From Olsenella sp. KGMB02461 (GTDB lineage: Bacteria; Actinomycetota; Coriobacteriia; Coriobacteriales; Atopobiaceae), in NCBI RefSeq assembly GCF_012584445.1, contig NZ_JABAHI010000008.1:186001-250000 (forward strand): a stretch of DNA of 64,000 bases. Reading direction: 5' to 3'. Positions within the stretch are counted from its first letter, which is position 1. Each line of letters opens with the position of its first letter. Both the position numbers and the translations under genes were made by a program. Below are positions 55,381 through 61,867 of this stretch, piece after piece. The notes below the pieces were generated by a model. The model did no database searches. It saw only the letters and a program-made list of their open reading frames with translations, and had not been told where the DNA came from.

Positions 55381-56067
55381 GTGAAGCTCAAGTTCTTGGA
55401 GGACAAAATTCATGCCGCGGACCCATCCGCGCCCGTGGGGACCTCCAACAATCCCAGCTCGCAGATTCTCACTGTCGCCAATTGCATAACAGTTGCGAGG
55501 ATACTACTCACCATCGTCTTCCTAGTGCTGTTTGTGCAGCACTTCAATAGGTTTGCATGCCTGATCATCTATGCCGTCGCAGCTCTTACTGACTTCGTGG
55601 ACGGCCAGGTAGCCAGACGCACCCAAACGGTAAGCTGGTTTGGCAAGCTATTGGACCCTGCGGTAGACCGTTTCCTTATATTCACTGGCGTCATCGGGCT
55701 GTGCGTGGTAGGCGACCTTCCGCTTTGGATCCCTGTGATACTGATTGGCCGCGACGCGGTGTTGGCCTGTGGCATGGCCCTTTTGCAGCGTTATCGCAAG
55801 CGTCCCGTGGACGTGCTTTTTATAGGCAAGGTAGCCACTGCGGTTTTGCTTGCAGGATTCAGCTGGCTGCTATTGGACGTGCCTATTGTGGATGGCTTCG
55901 GCTGGGTTGATGCAAGCTGGCTTCCTTTGCTCAATTCTCAGCCTGGCTGTCCTGCACTTTTGGTCGTCTATGCAGGGGTTATCGTCTCTCTTACCACCGG
56001 TATACTTTATATTCTTGAAGGTTTACAGATTCGCGACGAGGCCATCGAAGAGGGCGGTGAGAAGTGA
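55381..56067 (+). CDS. pgsA: CDP-diacylglycerol-glycerol-3-phosphate 3-phosphatidyltransferase-like
   Basis: A 228-residue CDP-alcohol phosphatidyltransferase that should make phosphatidylglycerol phosphate or a related phospholipid. The signature D-G-x2-A-R-x8-G-x3-D-x3-D is seen as DGQVARRTQTVSWFGKLLDPAVD near residue 77 (split: DGQVARR, then GKLLDPAVD). Five or six membrane segments are expected. It starts with GTG after GGAGG with a 6-nt spacer. Its stop overlaps the next start (GTGA). The exact alcohol substrate is inferred from family resemblance. Confidence 0.85.
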   Translation: MKLKFLEDKIHAADPSAPVGTSNNPSSQILTVANCITVARILLTIVFLVLFVQHFNRFACLIIYAVAALTDFVDGQVARRTQTVSWFGKLLDPAVDRFLIFTGVIGLCVVGDLPLWIPVILIGRDAVLACGMALLQRYRKRPVDVLFIGKVATAVLLAGFSWLLLDVPIVDGFGWVDASWLPLLNSQPGCPALLVVYAGVIVSLTTGILYILEGLQIRDEAIEEGGEK

Positions 56068-57308
56068 CATCCTCTTTTGTCAGCGTGTTTGCTCCTAGAG
56101 CTGCCGAGGAACCCATTCATTCCACTCTGCAGCCTTTATGCCCTCGAATCCTCGTTTGCCTCGGTCGCTCTACCGCCTGTCTGCTGCTTGCAGCCCTTTT
56201 TGCCGCTCTCCTGTGTCCTACTGCTGCTTGGGCGCTTTCTGATCAACCCACCGTCAACGAGGCGCAAGCCTGGTGCGTCACCGATGAGACCGGCGCCATT
56301 CTGGCCTCAGCCTCTGAAGACGAGCTATTTGCGCCGGCATCCATCACCAAAGTCCTTACTGCCTGCGTGGCGCTGGACAAAGGGGTGTCTCCAGACACAG
56401 TGATAACCATTCCTCAAATGCCTGAGGAGGGTTGGGAGGCGGCTCAAAGAGCCGGTTATGCGCCAGGAACCACGGCAACTTTCAAGGATCTCTTGGCTGT
56501 GATGTTGGTCTATTCGGCCAATGACGCTGCCTATGCCATCGCCGAGTATGTGGGTGGCAGCCAAGCCGGCTTTGCTCAAATGATGAACGAGAAGGCGCAG
56601 CAAATAGGTATGACCAATTCCACATTCAAGAATCCCCATGGGCTGGAAGAGGAAGGACATCTCACCTGCGCTCGTGATCTCTGCCTTTTAGGCCGTTACG
56701 CCCTGACGCGCTACCCGCTCATAGCTAAATGGGTGCATACGCCTCAGGTGACTGTGCCTGTGAATGGACAAGATCTGACGTTTTCCAGTACGGATGAGCT
56801 CATGGGAACATACAAGCCGCTCATTGGTATCAAAACGGGCAAAGTGGAAGCGGGGTGCACCTTCTTGGGAGCAGCTCGCAAGAACAATGTGACCTTATAT
56901 ACCTGCGTCTTGGGCTGTGCTACCAGTGACGGCCGCTTTAGGGATACCCGCAATCTCATGGAATGGGCATTCGCCACCTATAAGAACATGGCAGTCACCC
57001 GTGCAGGTCAGACGATACAGACCAATCCCTTTGCCTTCAGGTTTGGCTATGAAGTGCCGGTGAGCTCTCCGATGACAACCCGGGCTATGATCTGGCCAGA
57101 CGACGTGGCGTGCTCCTATACGCGCACGCTTACTTCATCAAGCCAGCTCCTATCCAGCCAGGCAACCTGCGGAGTCGAGCAGTGGCGTCAAGGCGATCGC
57201 ATTGTCGCCGCCACCTCTTTTGAGACCGACTGGCCAAGACCTTCTTTTAGGCCCTATAGATGGACTTTCGATTGGGCAGCTCACGCAGTTGCCCGAAAGG
57301 CGGCATGA
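56064..57308 (+). CDS. D-alanyl-D-alanine carboxypeptidase (S11 family)
   Basis: A 414-residue penicillin-binding enzyme that trims the terminal D-Ala of peptidoglycan stem peptides, which also supplies the tetrapeptides used by L,D-transpeptidases. It has an N-terminal membrane or signal segment (about residues 30-57, ending AWALS), the nucleophile motif SITK in PASITKVLTA, SAN in VYSANDA, and KTG in GIKTGKVEAG. A C-terminal beta-rich domain follows, without a clear membrane anchor. It starts with GTG and is coupled to pgsA. The next gene overlaps the stop by ATGA. Confidence 0.92.
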   Translation: MTSSFVSVFAPRAAEEPIHSTLQPLCPRILVCLGRSTACLLLAALFAALLCPTAAWALSDQPTVNEAQAWCVTDETGAILASASEDELFAPASITKVLTACVALDKGVSPDTVITIPQMPEEGWEAAQRAGYAPGTTATFKDLLAVMLVYSANDAAYAIAEYVGGSQAGFAQMMNEKAQQIGMTNSTFKNPHGLEEEGHLTCARDLCLLGRYALTRYPLIAKWVHTPQVTVPVNGQDLTFSSTDELMGTYKPLIGIKTGKVEAGCTFLGAARKNNVTLYTCVLGCATSDGRFRDTRNLMEWAFATYKNMAVTRAGQTIQTNPFAFRFGYEVPVSSPMTTRAMIWPDDVACSYTRTLTSSSQLLSSQATCGVEQWRQGDRIVAATSFETDWPRPSFRPYRWTFDWAAHAVARKAA

Positions 57309-58207
57309 CTCCTATGAGCGACAAGTCTGATTCTCAGGGTAAAAGCGGCGTTCTCTCTCAAGAGCATGCCTTGTTAGGTGCGACCCTTGAGCCTGCAGCC
57401 AACGGCTATCTCGAGGCCTCCTACTATGGCGACGGTTCTCAAGAACCTGAGGTCTTCAATCAGGGAGCAGCCCTTTGCGATGTGGGTAGCCTGGTTTCCA
57501 CTTGCATTTCTGGCAAGGAGGCTGCGGCTTTTGTATCGGCGGTCTTCACAGGCCCCGTACCCTTTGCAGGGCAACTGGTCTGCTCGCTCGCGCTCACCGG
57601 AACGGGCACTGTGGTGTCTCCTGCGTTGGTAGCAGGCATCGGCCCTCAAGACTTTTGTATCTGGGCGCCCGCAGAGACCGCAGAGGGCTTGGACTCTTGG
57701 CTTCATGGCATTGCCGCCATTGAGCAAGATGGGAAAGCCCCTTTTGCATCGGTCGCCTTTGAGCCTGGAGCGCCGTTTTCTACCATGTTGGCCATGGTGG
57801 GACCACAGGCACCTCAAGTCTTAGAAGATTATCTGGCAGAGGGCGTAAAGCTTCCTGCTCCTGGTACGTTGGGCAACATCTCCCTCGATGCCATCGACAC
57901 CGTCATGCTCCATCCGAAGGTTCCCGGCGCCTCCCAGAAAGACCCACACAATCACGCCTACCTTATGGTGATCCCCAATCAAAAAGTTACGGTACTTTGG
58001 CGCAGCTTCTTGTCCTTTGATAGCGTGACACCGGTAGGCACCTCGGCGTTCTGGGGATGGATCCAAGAAAAGTGCCCAGGTATCGTAGACCTTCTGGATG
58101 AGCCCACCAAGCCCCAGACTCCTCAAGGCCTGCATTTGAAAGATTGGCTCAGGCCCACAGACGATTTCATAGGGGCTCGCGCGCTGGCCAAGGGACAAAC
58201 CCCATAG
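57305..58207 (+). CDS. GcvT/YgfZ-like folate-binding fold protein
   Basis: A 300-residue protein related in pattern to aminomethyltransferases and YgfZ: ALCDVGSLVSTCISGKEAAAF resembles the start of the GcvT fold (where DVSHMG is usual), and the C-terminal third ends with a globular region. There is no other glycine-cleavage gene nearby, so a YgfZ-type iron-sulfur or other role is as likely as glycine cleavage. I prefer the ATG at 57305, which overlaps the preceding stop (ATGA); an ATG at 57314 is possible. The usual GcvT catalytic aspartate cannot be placed. Function uncertain. Confidence 0.5.
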   Translation: MTPMSDKSDSQGKSGVLSQEHALLGATLEPAANGYLEASYYGDGSQEPEVFNQGAALCDVGSLVSTCISGKEAAAFVSAVFTGPVPFAGQLVCSLALTGTGTVVSPALVAGIGPQDFCIWAPAETAEGLDSWLHGIAAIEQDGKAPFASVAFEPGAPFSTMLAMVGPQAPQVLEDYLAEGVKLPAPGTLGNISLDAIDTVMLHPKVPGASQKDPHNHAYLMVIPNQKVTVLWRSFLSFDSVTPVGTSAFWGWIQEKCPGIVDLLDEPTKPQTPQGLHLKDWLRPTDDFIGARALAKGQTP

Positions 58208-58249: not shown

Positions 58250-59452
58250 ATGACCTACGATTTCACCACGGTGCAAAACAGGCGAGGACAGGGTTCTTCC
58301 AAATGGCAGGCGATGGACGAGGCTGCACCTCATCACGGCCCTGAGGCGGTACCCTTCTCGGTAGCAGATATGGAATTTGCTACGGCGCCAGAGATTGTGG
58401 CGGCCCTGCATGAGCTCTGCGATTCGGCAATCTTGGGATATACGATGCCTACCTCCAGCTACCTGGATGCCGTATGTGAATGGCAGCGCCAGCGCCACAG
58501 CTGGGATGTGGACCCTTCTTGGATCGTCACTTCACCAGGCGTGGTGCCTGCTTTGGGTTATGGCATCGAGGCCGCAACGGCCCCGGGCGATCAGGTGGTC
58601 ATCCAGCCGCCGGTCTACTATCCCTTTAGCGAGGTCATCGAGCAAACTGACAGAAAGATTGCGCGAAATCCTCTGCGTCTCACTCAGGCTGGTTATCAGC
58701 TGGATCTGGAAGGATTTGAAGCTCTCTGCAAAGATCCGGCCACTACGGCATTCATCCTCTGCAACCCCCACAATCCTGTGGGTCGCGTATGGAGCCGAGA
58801 AGAACTTGCCTCCATGGCAGATATCTGCGCGGCTCACGGGGTGACTGTCATTGCTGATGAGATCCATGGCGACCTTATACTCGAAGGCTACGAGCATTTT
58901 TGTTTTGGCAGGCTGTTGGAGAAGCGGCCTGCCCTAAAAGCCATCGTGTGCACGGCACCTTCTAAAACCTTCAACCTCGCAGGGCTTCAATGCTCCAATA
59001 TCTTTCTCCCGGATCAAGAGCTTAGAGAGCGCTTTGCGGCAGCTGCTAAGAATGCTGGTGTGTGGAATCTCAACTGCTTTGCCTATCGGGCCTGCGAGGC
59101 AGCCTATAGACAAGGATCTCCTTGGCTCCACGAGCTTCTTCAGGTGATTCAGCGCAACTATGAGCTGGTAAAAGGGCATATGACCAGTTCTTGGCCAAAA
59201 AGCTGGGTGGCGCCCCTGGAAGGTACCTATCTTGCATGGATAGACCTTAGGTTTACAGACGCTACTGCCCAAGAGCTCGAACAAGCCATGGAGGCGCACG
59301 ACCTCTTCTTTGATGAAGGTGCTATCTTTGGCCGCGAGGGAGAGGGGTTCGAGCGCTGGAATCTTGCATGTCCCACTTCGCTTATTCAAGAGGCGCTTCC
59401 TCGATTGGACGCAGCCCTTCGCGATCTTTGCGCTTGTGGCACTCTCTCTTAA
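58250..59452 (+). CDS. MalY/PatB-family PLP-dependent C-S lyase
   Basis: The 400-residue enzyme is a fold-type I aminotransferase relative of the MalY/PatB group, which split cystathionine or cysteine conjugates to give homocysteine or sulfide with pyruvate and ammonia. FTTVQNRRGQGSSKW at the N-terminus is characteristic, PVYYPF and NPHNPVGRVW follow, and the PLP lysine is in SKTFNLAGLQ (about residue 240). RidA-encoding sequence follows after 68 bp, which is functionally sensible because RidA clears the enamine products of PLP lyases. The start ATG follows AGGGGAG. Confidence 0.9.
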   Translation: MTYDFTTVQNRRGQGSSKWQAMDEAAPHHGPEAVPFSVADMEFATAPEIVAALHELCDSAILGYTMPTSSYLDAVCEWQRQRHSWDVDPSWIVTSPGVVPALGYGIEAATAPGDQVVIQPPVYYPFSEVIEQTDRKIARNPLRLTQAGYQLDLEGFEALCKDPATTAFILCNPHNPVGRVWSREELASMADICAAHGVTVIADEIHGDLILEGYEHFCFGRLLEKRPALKAIVCTAPSKTFNLAGLQCSNIFLPDQELRERFAAAAKNAGVWNLNCFAYRACEAAYRQGSPWLHELLQVIQRNYELVKGHMTSSWPKSWVAPLEGTYLAWIDLRFTDATAQELEQAMEAHDLFFDEGAIFGREGEGFERWNLACPTSLIQEALPRLDAALRDLCACGTLS

Positions 59453-59520
59453 GCTGTGAGCTGCGTTTCAAATCCTCGCCGAGTTCTTAAGAGGATCATT
59501 ATATTTTAAGGAGTTGATCT

Positions 59521-59895
59521 ATGTACTCGTTGAGCAGTCCAAACGCGCCTCAGCCCTCGGGCCCCTTCTCTCAAGGCTCTTCGGCAGCGCGCTATGTCTT
59601 TATCTCTGGTCAGCTTCCTATCACCGCAGAGGGCCAAAAGCTCACAGAGGCTTCCATTGGCTCGCAAACGGTGCAGGTGATCAAGAACATCGAGGCCATT
59701 CTGGCAGACGTCGGCCTCACCATCTCTGACGTGTGCAAAACCACCGTTTACCTGGCAGATCTCTCAGATTTAGCCGCAGTGGACGAGGTCTATTCCGAGC
59801 GCTTTGAAAAGCCTTATCCAGCCCGTTCGGTGCTTGAGGTGTCCCGATTGCCCCATGGAGCGCGCATTCAGATGGAAGCTGTGGCCTGTAGATAA
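59521..59895 (+). CDS. ridA: RidA/YjgF-type enamine deaminase
   Basis: The 124-residue protein hydrolyses reactive 2-aminoacrylate and related enamines produced by PLP enzymes. The conserved regions SSPNAPQPSGPFSQG (start), FISGQLPI, CKTTVYLADL and PARSVLEVSRLPHGA with its arginine are present, along with the C-terminal IQMEAVAC. AAGGAG lies 9 nt upstream. The gene is directly downstream of the PLP C-S lyase gene, which is a likely source of its substrate. Confidence 0.93.
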   Translation: MYSLSSPNAPQPSGPFSQGSSAARYVFISGQLPITAEGQKLTEASIGSQTVQVIKNIEAILADVGLTISDVCKTTVYLADLSDLAAVDEVYSERFEKPYPARSVLEVSRLPHGARIQMEAVACR

Positions 59896-59912
59896 ACTAT
59901 ATATACATACAT

Positions 59913-59952
59913 AGAGCCAATGTCTGATGAGAGATACCAGGCATGGGGCTCT
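59913..59952 (+). terminator. weak imperfect hairpin after ridA
   Basis: Arms AGAGCC (59913-59918) and GGCTCT (59947-59952) with shorter inner pairs lie between ridA and the FHA gene. TACAAT at 59961-59966 right after it is a possible -10 for the FHA gene. Confidence 0.3.
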
Positions 59953-59999
59953 TGGTGCGTTACAATGGAGATTCACAAGGTCACAGCTAGGAGGCTTCG

Positions 60000-60416
60000 A
60001 TGTCAGACACCCCCCAATCTAACGACGCCACCAGCATCTTTCGTATGCCCTCTACAGATGCCACGGTTCCTGATCTCATGGGCTCCCAGCGTCTGTCTAA
60101 CCCTACGCTCTCCATCGTAAAGGGGCCTCATACCGGCACTACGTTTGTGCTTGACACGCCAGAGATCACCATTGGCCGCGATCCTTCCAACAGCGTCTTT
60201 TTAAACGACATGACGGTATCTCGCCACCATGCCAAGATGCATCTTGTTCCGGGAGCCAACTCCATCGAGGATCTAGGCTCTCTTAACGGCACCTGGGTCG
60301 ACGGCGCCATTATCAATCGCGCCATGTTGGAAGATGGCTCCACCATTCAGGTGGGCACATTCCGCATGATCTTCCATACCACTCAAAACACCAGCCGTAT
60401 CCCTGTGGAAGCCTAA
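60000..60416 (+). CDS. FHA-domain protein, GarA/OdhI-like
   Basis: A 138-residue cytoplasmic protein with one FHA domain (about residues 40-130: ITIGRDPSNSVFL, TVSRHHA, GSLNGTWV), which binds phosphothreonine. The N-terminal tail includes ATSIFR at residues 10-15, resembling the ETTSVFR phospho-switch of GarA and OdhI, in which a phosphorylated Thr folds back onto the FHA domain. GarA and OdhI control 2-oxoglutarate metabolism after phosphorylation by PknB or PknG; no kinase gene is seen here. A MerR regulator gene begins 4 nt after the stop, as in mycobacteria and corynebacteria. The start follows AGGAGG. Confidence 0.85.
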   Translation: MSDTPQSNDATSIFRMPSTDATVPDLMGSQRLSNPTLSIVKGPHTGTTFVLDTPEITIGRDPSNSVFLNDMTVSRHHAKMHLVPGANSIEDLGSLNGTWVDGAIINRAMLEDGSTIQVGTFRMIFHTTQNTSRIPVEA

Positions 60417-60420
60417 GTCT

Positions 60421-61146
60421 ATGGCAGATGCCGGATACCTCACCATAGGCAAGGTGGTCAAGCGCCTGCAGGCAGAATACCCGGATCTCTCGGTTTCCAA
60501 GGTGCGCTACCTGGAAGACGAGGGCTTGCTCACACCCTCTCGCACCCCTGGTGGCTATAGGCTCTACAGCTCTAAAGACATTAAGCGTCTAGAGACCATC
60601 CTCTACCTGCAAAAACACAGGTTTTTGCCCCTCTCCGTGATTCGCGAGGAGCTGGATGGCAATGGCGAGGACTCTGCGGCAGCCTTGGCCAACGACTATC
60701 CTGAAGCCACTGTGGACGATGAGGAAGTGCGCAACTCGCTGCACCCTCTCGAGAATATGCCAGAGCTTTTGGGTGTTTCCATCGCTTTCGTGCGCGATCT
60801 GGCAAACATCGGCATCGTGGATCTCAAACGCAGCCCTCGTGGCCGCGAGTTGGTGGACGGGCGCGATTTCCCGCTCATCCGCACTGCAGATTCCCTAAAG
60901 CGTTTTGGCATCGAACCTCGCAACCTGCGCCAGTATGTCAATGCTGCAAACCGCGAGACTACCATGTTCGAGCAGGCTCTCTCTGTCATGGGACCACGTC
61001 AAGGCGAGTTCACCGCCGAGCAACGCGCCTCCTACAAACAGGCCTTTGAACAGCTGCTTTCCCTTACCAATGCCATAAGGGACGATCTCATCCGCAGGAA
61101 TTTTCGCCAGGAGCTCGCAGCCATCTCAGACACCCAGGAATCCTAG
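60421..61146 (+). CDS. MerR-family transcriptional regulator (FtsR-like by context)
   Basis: A 241-residue MerR-type regulator. The winged helix-turn-helix occupies about residues 5-75 (YLTIGKVV, VRYLEDEGLLTPSRTPGGYRLYS), followed by a second similar DNA-binding-like segment and a helical C-terminal region with no cysteine cluster typical of metal-sensing MerR. Its position beside an FHA gene resembles the pair of a GarA/OdhI-type gene and a MerR regulator that, in Corynebacterium, acts on ftsZ (FtsR). That functional transfer is inference. Start ATG at 60421, 4 nt after the FHA stop, so the genes are cotranscribed. Confidence 0.88.
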   Translation: MADAGYLTIGKVVKRLQAEYPDLSVSKVRYLEDEGLLTPSRTPGGYRLYSSKDIKRLETILYLQKHRFLPLSVIREELDGNGEDSAAALANDYPEATVDDEEVRNSLHPLENMPELLGVSIAFVRDLANIGIVDLKRSPRGRELVDGRDFPLIRTADSLKRFGIEPRNLRQYVNAANRETTMFEQALSVMGPRQGEFTAEQRASYKQAFEQLLSLTNAIRDDLIRRNFRQELAAISDTQES

Positions 61147-61191
61147 TGCTTCTTGGTTGTCCCATGGAAGGTATACCGCCCTCTAATCCCA

Positions 61192-61221
61192 AGGACAAAG
61201 CCCGGTTCTAAGGCGTACTAT
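61192..61221 (+). promoter_or_regulatory. candidate apt promoter
   Basis: AGGACA (61192-61197) and TACTAT (61216-61221) are 18 bp apart, about 110 bp before apt. Weak but the best pair in this gap. Confidence 0.3.
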
Positions 61222-61333
61222 TTTATGGGCACTCACTCGTAAGCGCCTTTTGAGAGCGCGCCCCAGTGCTCGTTTTGTCCTCTGCAACAGTCCCTGCCCG
61301 GCCTGCTGCCCTTTACAAGGAGAAGCCACTGCC

Positions 61334-61867
61334 ATGAGCAATTTCGCCTACACCGACCTTGTGGTCGACATTCCCGATTACCCGGAGCCTGGCGTCATCT
61401 TCAAAGACATTACCCCTCTGATCGCAGACCCCCAGGGCTTCTCCGCTGTCATCGATGGGCTGGCCGAGCACTTCATGGGCCTAGGCATCACCAAAGTGGT
61501 GGGTGCTGAGGCTCGCGGCTTTTTGGTTGGCGCTCCTGTGGCCTATCGTCTGGCCGCAGGCTTCGTCCCTGCCCGCAAGCCTGGAAAACTCCCCCGCGAC
61601 GTTATCTCTCAGGCTTACGCGCTGGAGTACGGCACCGATGAGATCCAGATCCACGCAGACGCCCTCTCTCCAGATGATCGCGTCCTCATCATCGACGACC
61701 TGGTAGCCACTGGTGGCACCGCCGTTGCCTGCGCCCAGCTGGTGGAGAAGGCCGGCGCCAAGGTCATTGGCTTTGGTTTTGCTCTCGAGCTGGCCTATCT
61801 CAATCCTCGCGACGTCATCTCCCAGCACTTTGACCAGGAAGTCTACTCCCTCATCACCGTGGAGTAG
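61334..61867 (+). CDS. apt: adenine phosphoribosyltransferase
   Basis: Apt salvages adenine to AMP with PRPP. The 177-residue protein has the expected IPDYPEPGVIFKDITPL start, the GAEARGFLVGAPVAY segment and the PRPP loop VLIIDDLVATGGTAVA. The ATG at 61334 is supported by AAGGAGAAG about 12 nt upstream; an in-frame start at 61250 would be longer than the family. It stands alone, with two hairpins downstream. Confidence 0.95.
   Translation: MSNFAYTDLVVDIPDYPEPGVIFKDITPLIADPQGFSAVIDGLAEHFMGLGITKVVGAEARGFLVGAPVAYRLAAGFVPARKPGKLPRDVISQAYALEYGTDEIQIHADALSPDDRVLIIDDLVATGGTAVACAQLVEKAGAKVIGFGFALELAYLNPRDVISQHFDQEVYSLITVE

Follow-up and report, generated by a model that had tools for sequence, protein, structure and literature searches.

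A GarA/OdhI-type switch protein kept in Coriobacteriia genomes that lack 2-oxoglutarate dehydrogenase

What does a GarA-type switch do in a bacterium without 2-oxoglutarate dehydrogenase (ODH)? GarA has been described as apparently co-evolved with the rearranged actinobacterial ODH (PMC12321487). The question is raised by a short ORF in the window, a 64,000-nucleotide stretch of DNA from an Atopobiaceae bacterium of the class Coriobacteriia, which by its sequence is the garA orthologue of this organism.

60000 to 60416, + strand: garA orthologue, an ORF of 138 aa with an ATG start; tail 1-35, FHA domain 36-126
59989 to 59994, + strand: perfect ribosome-binding site AGGAGG, 5 bases 5′ of the ATG, read from the sequence
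60105 to 60377, + strand: FHA domain, with pocket R60, S74, R75, H77, S94, N96 and ODH-contact positions K41, T120, R122
60421 to 61146, + strand: ftsR, a MerR-type regulator of the Rv1828/cg1631 family (NF050798, 195 bits, cut-off 150), 4 bp past the garA stop

The two genes are probably co-transcribed; a consensus search from 59400 to 61400 gave no sigma-70-like promoter. The first-pass annotation had called the downstream gene a MerR regulator, which its FtsR family match confirms. The FHA-MerR pair corresponds to garA-ftsR, which is present across the phylum in the same order as garA-Rv1828 and odhI-cg1631, and is not particular to this genome.

The protein begins with MSDTPQSNDATSIFRMPSTDATVPDLM, followed by the FHA domain (Pfam FHA, 60.2 bits). 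Its closest solved relatives by sequence are OdhI (2kb3, E=4e-23) and GarA (8p5r, E=2e-22). An AlphaFold model built from a 20-sequence alignment has pLDDT >90 across most of the FHA core, and the structures closest to it in fold are all GarA/OdhI chains (rmsd 0.9-1.1 Å), so the earlier description of a compact GarA/OdhI-like protein holds for both sequence and fold. The modelled tail is disordered (pLDDT ~50) and speaks neither for nor against a closed form. The NCBIfam model for OdhI (NF041660) scores 86.4 bits, under its curated equivalog cut-off of 200 bits, and the genome has no ODH gene; by these two measures the protein is not an "oxoglutarate dehydrogenase inhibitor". Judged from sequence, it is an authentic GarA-type switch and a GarA/OdhI orthologue in the broad sense. 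We found a homologue in all 149 Coriobacteriia genomes searched. As a family member the protein is ordinary; its interest lies in a switch that is kept without its best-known target, in a gene context that points elsewhere.

The switch itself lies in the N-terminal tail, together with a second conserved block.

60030 to 60044, + strand: switch motif T11-S-I-F14-R15, equivalent to T22-S-V-F-R of GarA
60057 to 60080, + strand: second tail block D20-A-T22-V-P24-D-L26-M, particular to the compact form of Atopobiaceae/Coriobacteriaceae

We observe Thr11 and Phe14 (TxxF) in all 70 Coriobacteriia orthologues that were collected with their neighbourhood and in 79 of 80 named loci (Atopobiaceae, Olsenella, Collinsella, and others), the remaining one having TEIL. 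Variation of Thr11 among orthologues had been named in advance as an observation that would count against the proposed ATSIFR phospho-switch; the residue is conserved and the pocket intact, and on this point the proposal stands. The looser Txx-hydrophobic pattern was found in 140/140 orthologues, which is weak evidence alone because the pattern is likely to occur by chance, and we therefore counted only TxxF within Coriobacteriia. In the last 30 residues ahead of the FHA domain, TxxF is present in 100% of Coriobacteriia orthologues versus 10% of shuffled tails. All four codons are used for the invariant Thr (ACC 52, ACG 25, ACA 7, ACT 4), so conservation is at the residue and not at the DNA.

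The switch Thr is residue 22 in GarA and 15 in OdhI (PMC5448819, PMC2784874) and 11 in the window protein, and the linker from Thr to the FHA domain is 25 residues in every compact orthologue versus 33 in OdhI; the tail is therefore shorter than that of GarA, as had been stated. An adjacent "glutamate pair" was also said to be reduced to one site. The single site is real, since the first residue of the pair is Ala10 here, but the pair consists of threonines (T21/T22 in GarA, T14/T15 in OdhI). In mycobacteria, T21 is the threonine used by PknG. Only 1 of 31 compact orthologues has a Thr at the Ala10-equivalent position. No PknG rubredoxin domain was found in any Coriobacteriia among the matches listed. 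The adjacent Thr pair does not clearly track PknG: the pair is present in 51 of 70 orthologues outside the class, and the PknG rubredoxin model, which misses the C. glutamicum control, was over its cut-off in only 13 of 197 genomes.

In the second block, D20, T22, P24, and L26 are invariant in 31/31 compact orthologues, and the combined pattern TxxF..P..D.T.P is matched by 69 of the 80 named genomes. Thr22 (60063-60065), with Asp at +3 (TVPD), is thus a second invariant threonine in the compact tail; it is new here, having been missed by the first-pass annotation, and it could be a second phosphosite or part of a docking segment.

No substitution was seen in the phosphothreonine pocket of the orthologues compared from across the phylum (140/140). 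Four OdhI residues contact ODH, namely R53, S86, K132, and R134 (PMC10415282), and these correspond to K41, S74, T120, and R122, with one conservative change, two residues kept, and one lost. At the position of K132, 30/30 ODH-positive genomes have K/R and 31/31 compact Coriobacteriia have T. However, ODH-negative genomes outside Coriobacteriia also retain K/R at this position, so the change to Thr marks the lineage and not ODH loss as such; as a marker of ODH loss, the loss of ODH-contact residues is unsupported.

Genome content was assessed by family searches. ODH (PF16078) was found in 0 of 59 Coriobacteriia, including the window genome, with a positive C. glutamicum control, and the large NAD-glutamate dehydrogenase (PF05088) was likewise found in none of the same 59. 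That a whole anaerobic gut class without ODH keeps every switch residue suggests that the switch has another job. With both enzymes absent, the candidates left among the known partners are glutamate synthase, which is activated by GarA in mycobacteria (PMC5448819), and possibly the small NADP-glutamate dehydrogenase. Glutamate synthase (PF01645) is encoded in 42 of 50 good Coriobacteriia genomes and an ELFV-type glutamate dehydrogenase (PF00208) in 32 of 50. The window genome has a complete gltB-gltD pair (1525 and 481 bits) and an NADP-type gdhA (770 bits), whose products would be the candidate partners here. Glutamate synthase cannot be the sole partner, since three relatives (G042, G054, G039) have an intact switch and no glutamate synthase.

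The genes for setting and resetting a switch are also present. The window genome has two Pkinase matches and encodes a PknB kinase with four PASTA domains, whose operon also includes fhaA, fhaB, and the gene of a PstP-type phosphatase, in the order fhaA-fhaB-pstP-SEDS/PBP-pknB (NF033483, 632 bits; NF033484, 248 bits). In C. glutamicum, OdhI is phosphorylated by PknA, PknB, PknL, and PknG, with Thr14 and Thr15 phosphorylated in vivo; once phosphorylated, the tail docks on the protein's own FHA domain, and the phosphatase Ppp removes the phosphate (PMC2784874). By analogy, the PASTA-type PknB and the PstP-type phosphatase would act on Thr11. We therefore favor, with a probability of about 0.62, a phosphorylation-gated adaptor on the glutamate/2-oxoglutarate node that is switched at Thr11. 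The FHA surface of unphosphorylated GarA would bind and tune enzymes of this node; phosphorylation of Thr11 by PknB would fold the tail back, docking pThr11 in the protein's own FHA pocket and releasing the partner; and the PstP-type phosphatase would reset the switch. The lost ODH contact (K132 to T120) and the relatives with an intact switch but no glutamate synthase weigh against this reading.

The pknB operon has two further features. Between pstP and pknB is a natural SEDS-bPBP fusion, a 966-aa ORF outside the window (L145:12452-15352; genome C12, ~1328451-1331351) that joins FtsW/RodA (SEDS) to a penicillin-binding transpeptidase with a PBPA dimerisation domain. Directly 5′ of fhaA in the PknB cluster is a second Ser/Thr kinase of 727 aa (L145:7243-9426; genome C12, ~1323242-1325425), with an apparent N-lobe insertion and a hydrophobic C-terminal half.

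The neighbourhood of garA elsewhere in the phylum would fit a different first role. Outside Coriobacteriia, 42 of 70 loci have gcvH as the gene immediately 5′ of garA, and gcvT and gcvP are often close by. Within the class, 30 of 36 GcvP-positive genomes have gcvPA 2.2-4.6 kb 5′ of garA and on its strand; in five of the other six the two genes are on separate contigs, and the sixth lacks a garA coordinate. Of 33 genomes with a strong match to iorA, the gene for indolepyruvate:ferredoxin oxidoreductase alpha, 29 have it 3′ of garA and in the same orientation. Deep Coriobacteriia (L228-L238) carry all of these on one strand as gcvT-gcvH-gcvPA-gcvPB-lplA-garA-ftsR-vrr-hprt-apt-iorA-iorB, a run that joins glycine cleavage, purine salvage, and ferredoxin-dependent 2-oxoacid oxidation. 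That garA sits within a glycine-cleavage cluster across the phylum, with indolepyruvate:ferredoxin oxidoreductase genes 3′ in many Coriobacteriia, is new here. The arrangement suggests that the older context of garA is glycine and nitrogen metabolism and not ODH. On this evidence GarA may ancestrally regulate glycine cleavage and ferredoxin-linked 2-oxoacid oxidation, with ODH recruited later as an extra partner and the switch re-used for other partners in Coriobacteriales, where the glycine-cleavage genes are gone. We consider this unlikely, because gene neighbours can be inherited without functional coupling, and because Coriobacteriales, the order of the window genome, have kept GarA although GcvP and GcvH had a clear match in 0 of 23 genomes and were not found in the window genome. 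What is left is a diverged gene 5′ of garA:

57260 to 58207, + strand: GcvT-like protein of 315 aa (Pfam GCV_T, 58 bits; 26% identity and E=4e-12 to gcvT of L228)

This gene is probably what remains of the glycine-cleavage cluster found around garA in other Coriobacteriia, and such a GcvT-like gene is kept 5′ of garA in ~29 of 40 Atopobiaceae-range loci. In this lineage garA has thus outlasted glycine cleavage and stands without ODH.

The orthologues also differ in their N-termini. Those of other Coriobacteriia families and of many other classes have CxxC...CxxC first, then the Thr motif, and then the FHA domain; by its pattern and by sub-threshold Pfam matches, the CxxC...CxxC segment is a putative zinc ribbon. 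Within the class, the compact form is confined to Atopobiaceae (f1) and Coriobacteriaceae (f3), families assigned from named loci, and mycobacteria likewise have no ribbon. L035, one of the loci called compact, does have a zinc ribbon, whose spacing differs. It is also new here that an N-terminal zinc ribbon is present in most actinobacterial orthologues and missing from the window lineage; a literature search, which covered few papers of subscription journals, found no description of a zinc-ribbon GarA or of a gcv-garA link. On a garA+ftsR tree with weakly supported deep nodes and an arbitrary root, parsimony places four zinc-ribbon changes. The distribution suggests separate losses, for which the tree is too weak to be proof, and on the same grounds an "ancestral" zinc ribbon is deduced from distribution.

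Is the switch older than its link to ODH, as the first-pass annotation proposed? The FtsR model exceeds its cut-off in 269 of 296 genomes from the phylum and ODH (PF16078) is present in 90 of 197, so the garA-ftsR module is not tied to ODH. The far wider spread of the pair and the tie of garA to glycine-cleavage genes make the greater age of the module plausible but do not prove it, since anaerobic lineages could instead have lost ODH. A more ambitious scheme, which we rate as rather improbable, is that regulating ODH is not the main role of GarA. Its ancestral form would be a zinc-ribbon/TxxF/FHA switch in a glycine-cleavage cluster (in Coriobacteriia beside a 2-oxoacid:ferredoxin oxidoreductase) that gates glycine and 2-oxoacid decarboxylation on PknB input; ODH, the large GDH, and the PknG site would be later additions in some lineages, and the two-Thr compact form of Atopobiaceae/Coriobacteriaceae an independent simplification. 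The conserved gcv and iorA neighbourhood provides concrete candidates for GarA partners, and the question of what GarA regulated first would become testable.

The immediate neighbours of garA are themselves conserved.

59521 to 59895, + strand: ridA, enamine/imine deaminase (TIGR00004, 128 bits), directly 5′ of garA in Atopobiaceae
61334 to 61867, + strand: apt, adenine phosphoribosyltransferase (NF002636, 214 bits), a conserved downstream neighbour
55381 to 56067, + strand: CDP-alcohol phosphatidyltransferase, pgsA/clsA-like (NF053678/TIGR00560)

Among named loci, ridA is retained in 38 of 40, and apt in 38 of 40 of Atopobiaceae range and 28 of 30 of Collinsella range; pgsA is 5′ of garA in other classes of the phylum as well (L240, L242-L247). 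The ftsR gene is 3′ of garA in the compact loci and in most other orthologous loci. Conservation of the garA-ftsR pair has been described for a set of Actinobacteria, in a text that leaves Coriobacteriia unmentioned, and in C. glutamicum ftsR controls ftsZ and a functional link to OdhI has been proposed (PMC6683498). In Eggerthellaceae-like genomes (L045-L060; f2, an inferred label), ftsR has been lost and the zinc-ribbon garA kept, and iorA is the next gene after garA in 11 of 12. The ftsZ link, together with the absence of the known partners ODH and large GDH, would fit an adaptor that serves PknB signalling to cell-wall growth and division, is read out together with FtsR, and in this lineage partners no metabolic enzyme. 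This seems to us quite unlikely, as the Eggerthellaceae-like genomes keep garA and its switch without ftsR, and the window genome already has fhaA and fhaB as dedicated FHA proteins of the PknB cluster. FHA proteins are common, with three matches in the window genome, but it is scarcely credible that an unrelated FHA protein carries TxxF by coincidence, given the garA-ftsR order, a best match to OdhI and not FhaB (86 versus 70 bits), and the shuffle and codon-variety test, which refutes a chance origin of the motif.

The window protein can be compared with four known systems. FhaA and FhaB/FipA of the PknB operon share only the FHA domain with the window protein, and their genes are beside pknB/pstP; the genome's FhaB scores 83 bits with its own model versus 38 bits with the OdhI model, and FhaA has an FhaA_N domain. 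With this separate fhaB and the scores above, an FhaB identity for the window protein was rejected. The zinc-ribbon orthologues of other Actinomycetota (e.g. L034, L046, L240) share the FHA domain with its conserved pocket, a TxxF/Txx-hydrophobic site, and, except in Eggerthellaceae-like genomes, the position 5′ of ftsR, whereas their CxxC...CxxC ahead of the switch site is absent from the window protein. Mycobacterial GarA (Rv1827; 2kfu, 6i2p, 8p5r) has the same fold, switch motif, and position 5′ of ftsR, with the order gcvH-garA-ftsR in L247, a genome that we infer to be Mycobacterium-like, and the PknB-PASTA kinase is found in the window genome too; the PknG site T21, the large NAD-GDH, and KGD are absent there. 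OdhI of C. glutamicum (2kb3, 4qcj, 8p5x) shares the FHA fold (~41% identity, rmsd 0.9 Å), a Thr15-type site with Phe three residues on, an intact phosphothreonine pocket, and a gene 5′ of ftsR. In contrast to OdhI, the window protein is found in a genome without ODH, has Thr120 in place of Lys132 and Ala10 in place of Thr14, and carries a linker of 25 and not 33 residues with the extra invariant Thr22 in its tail.
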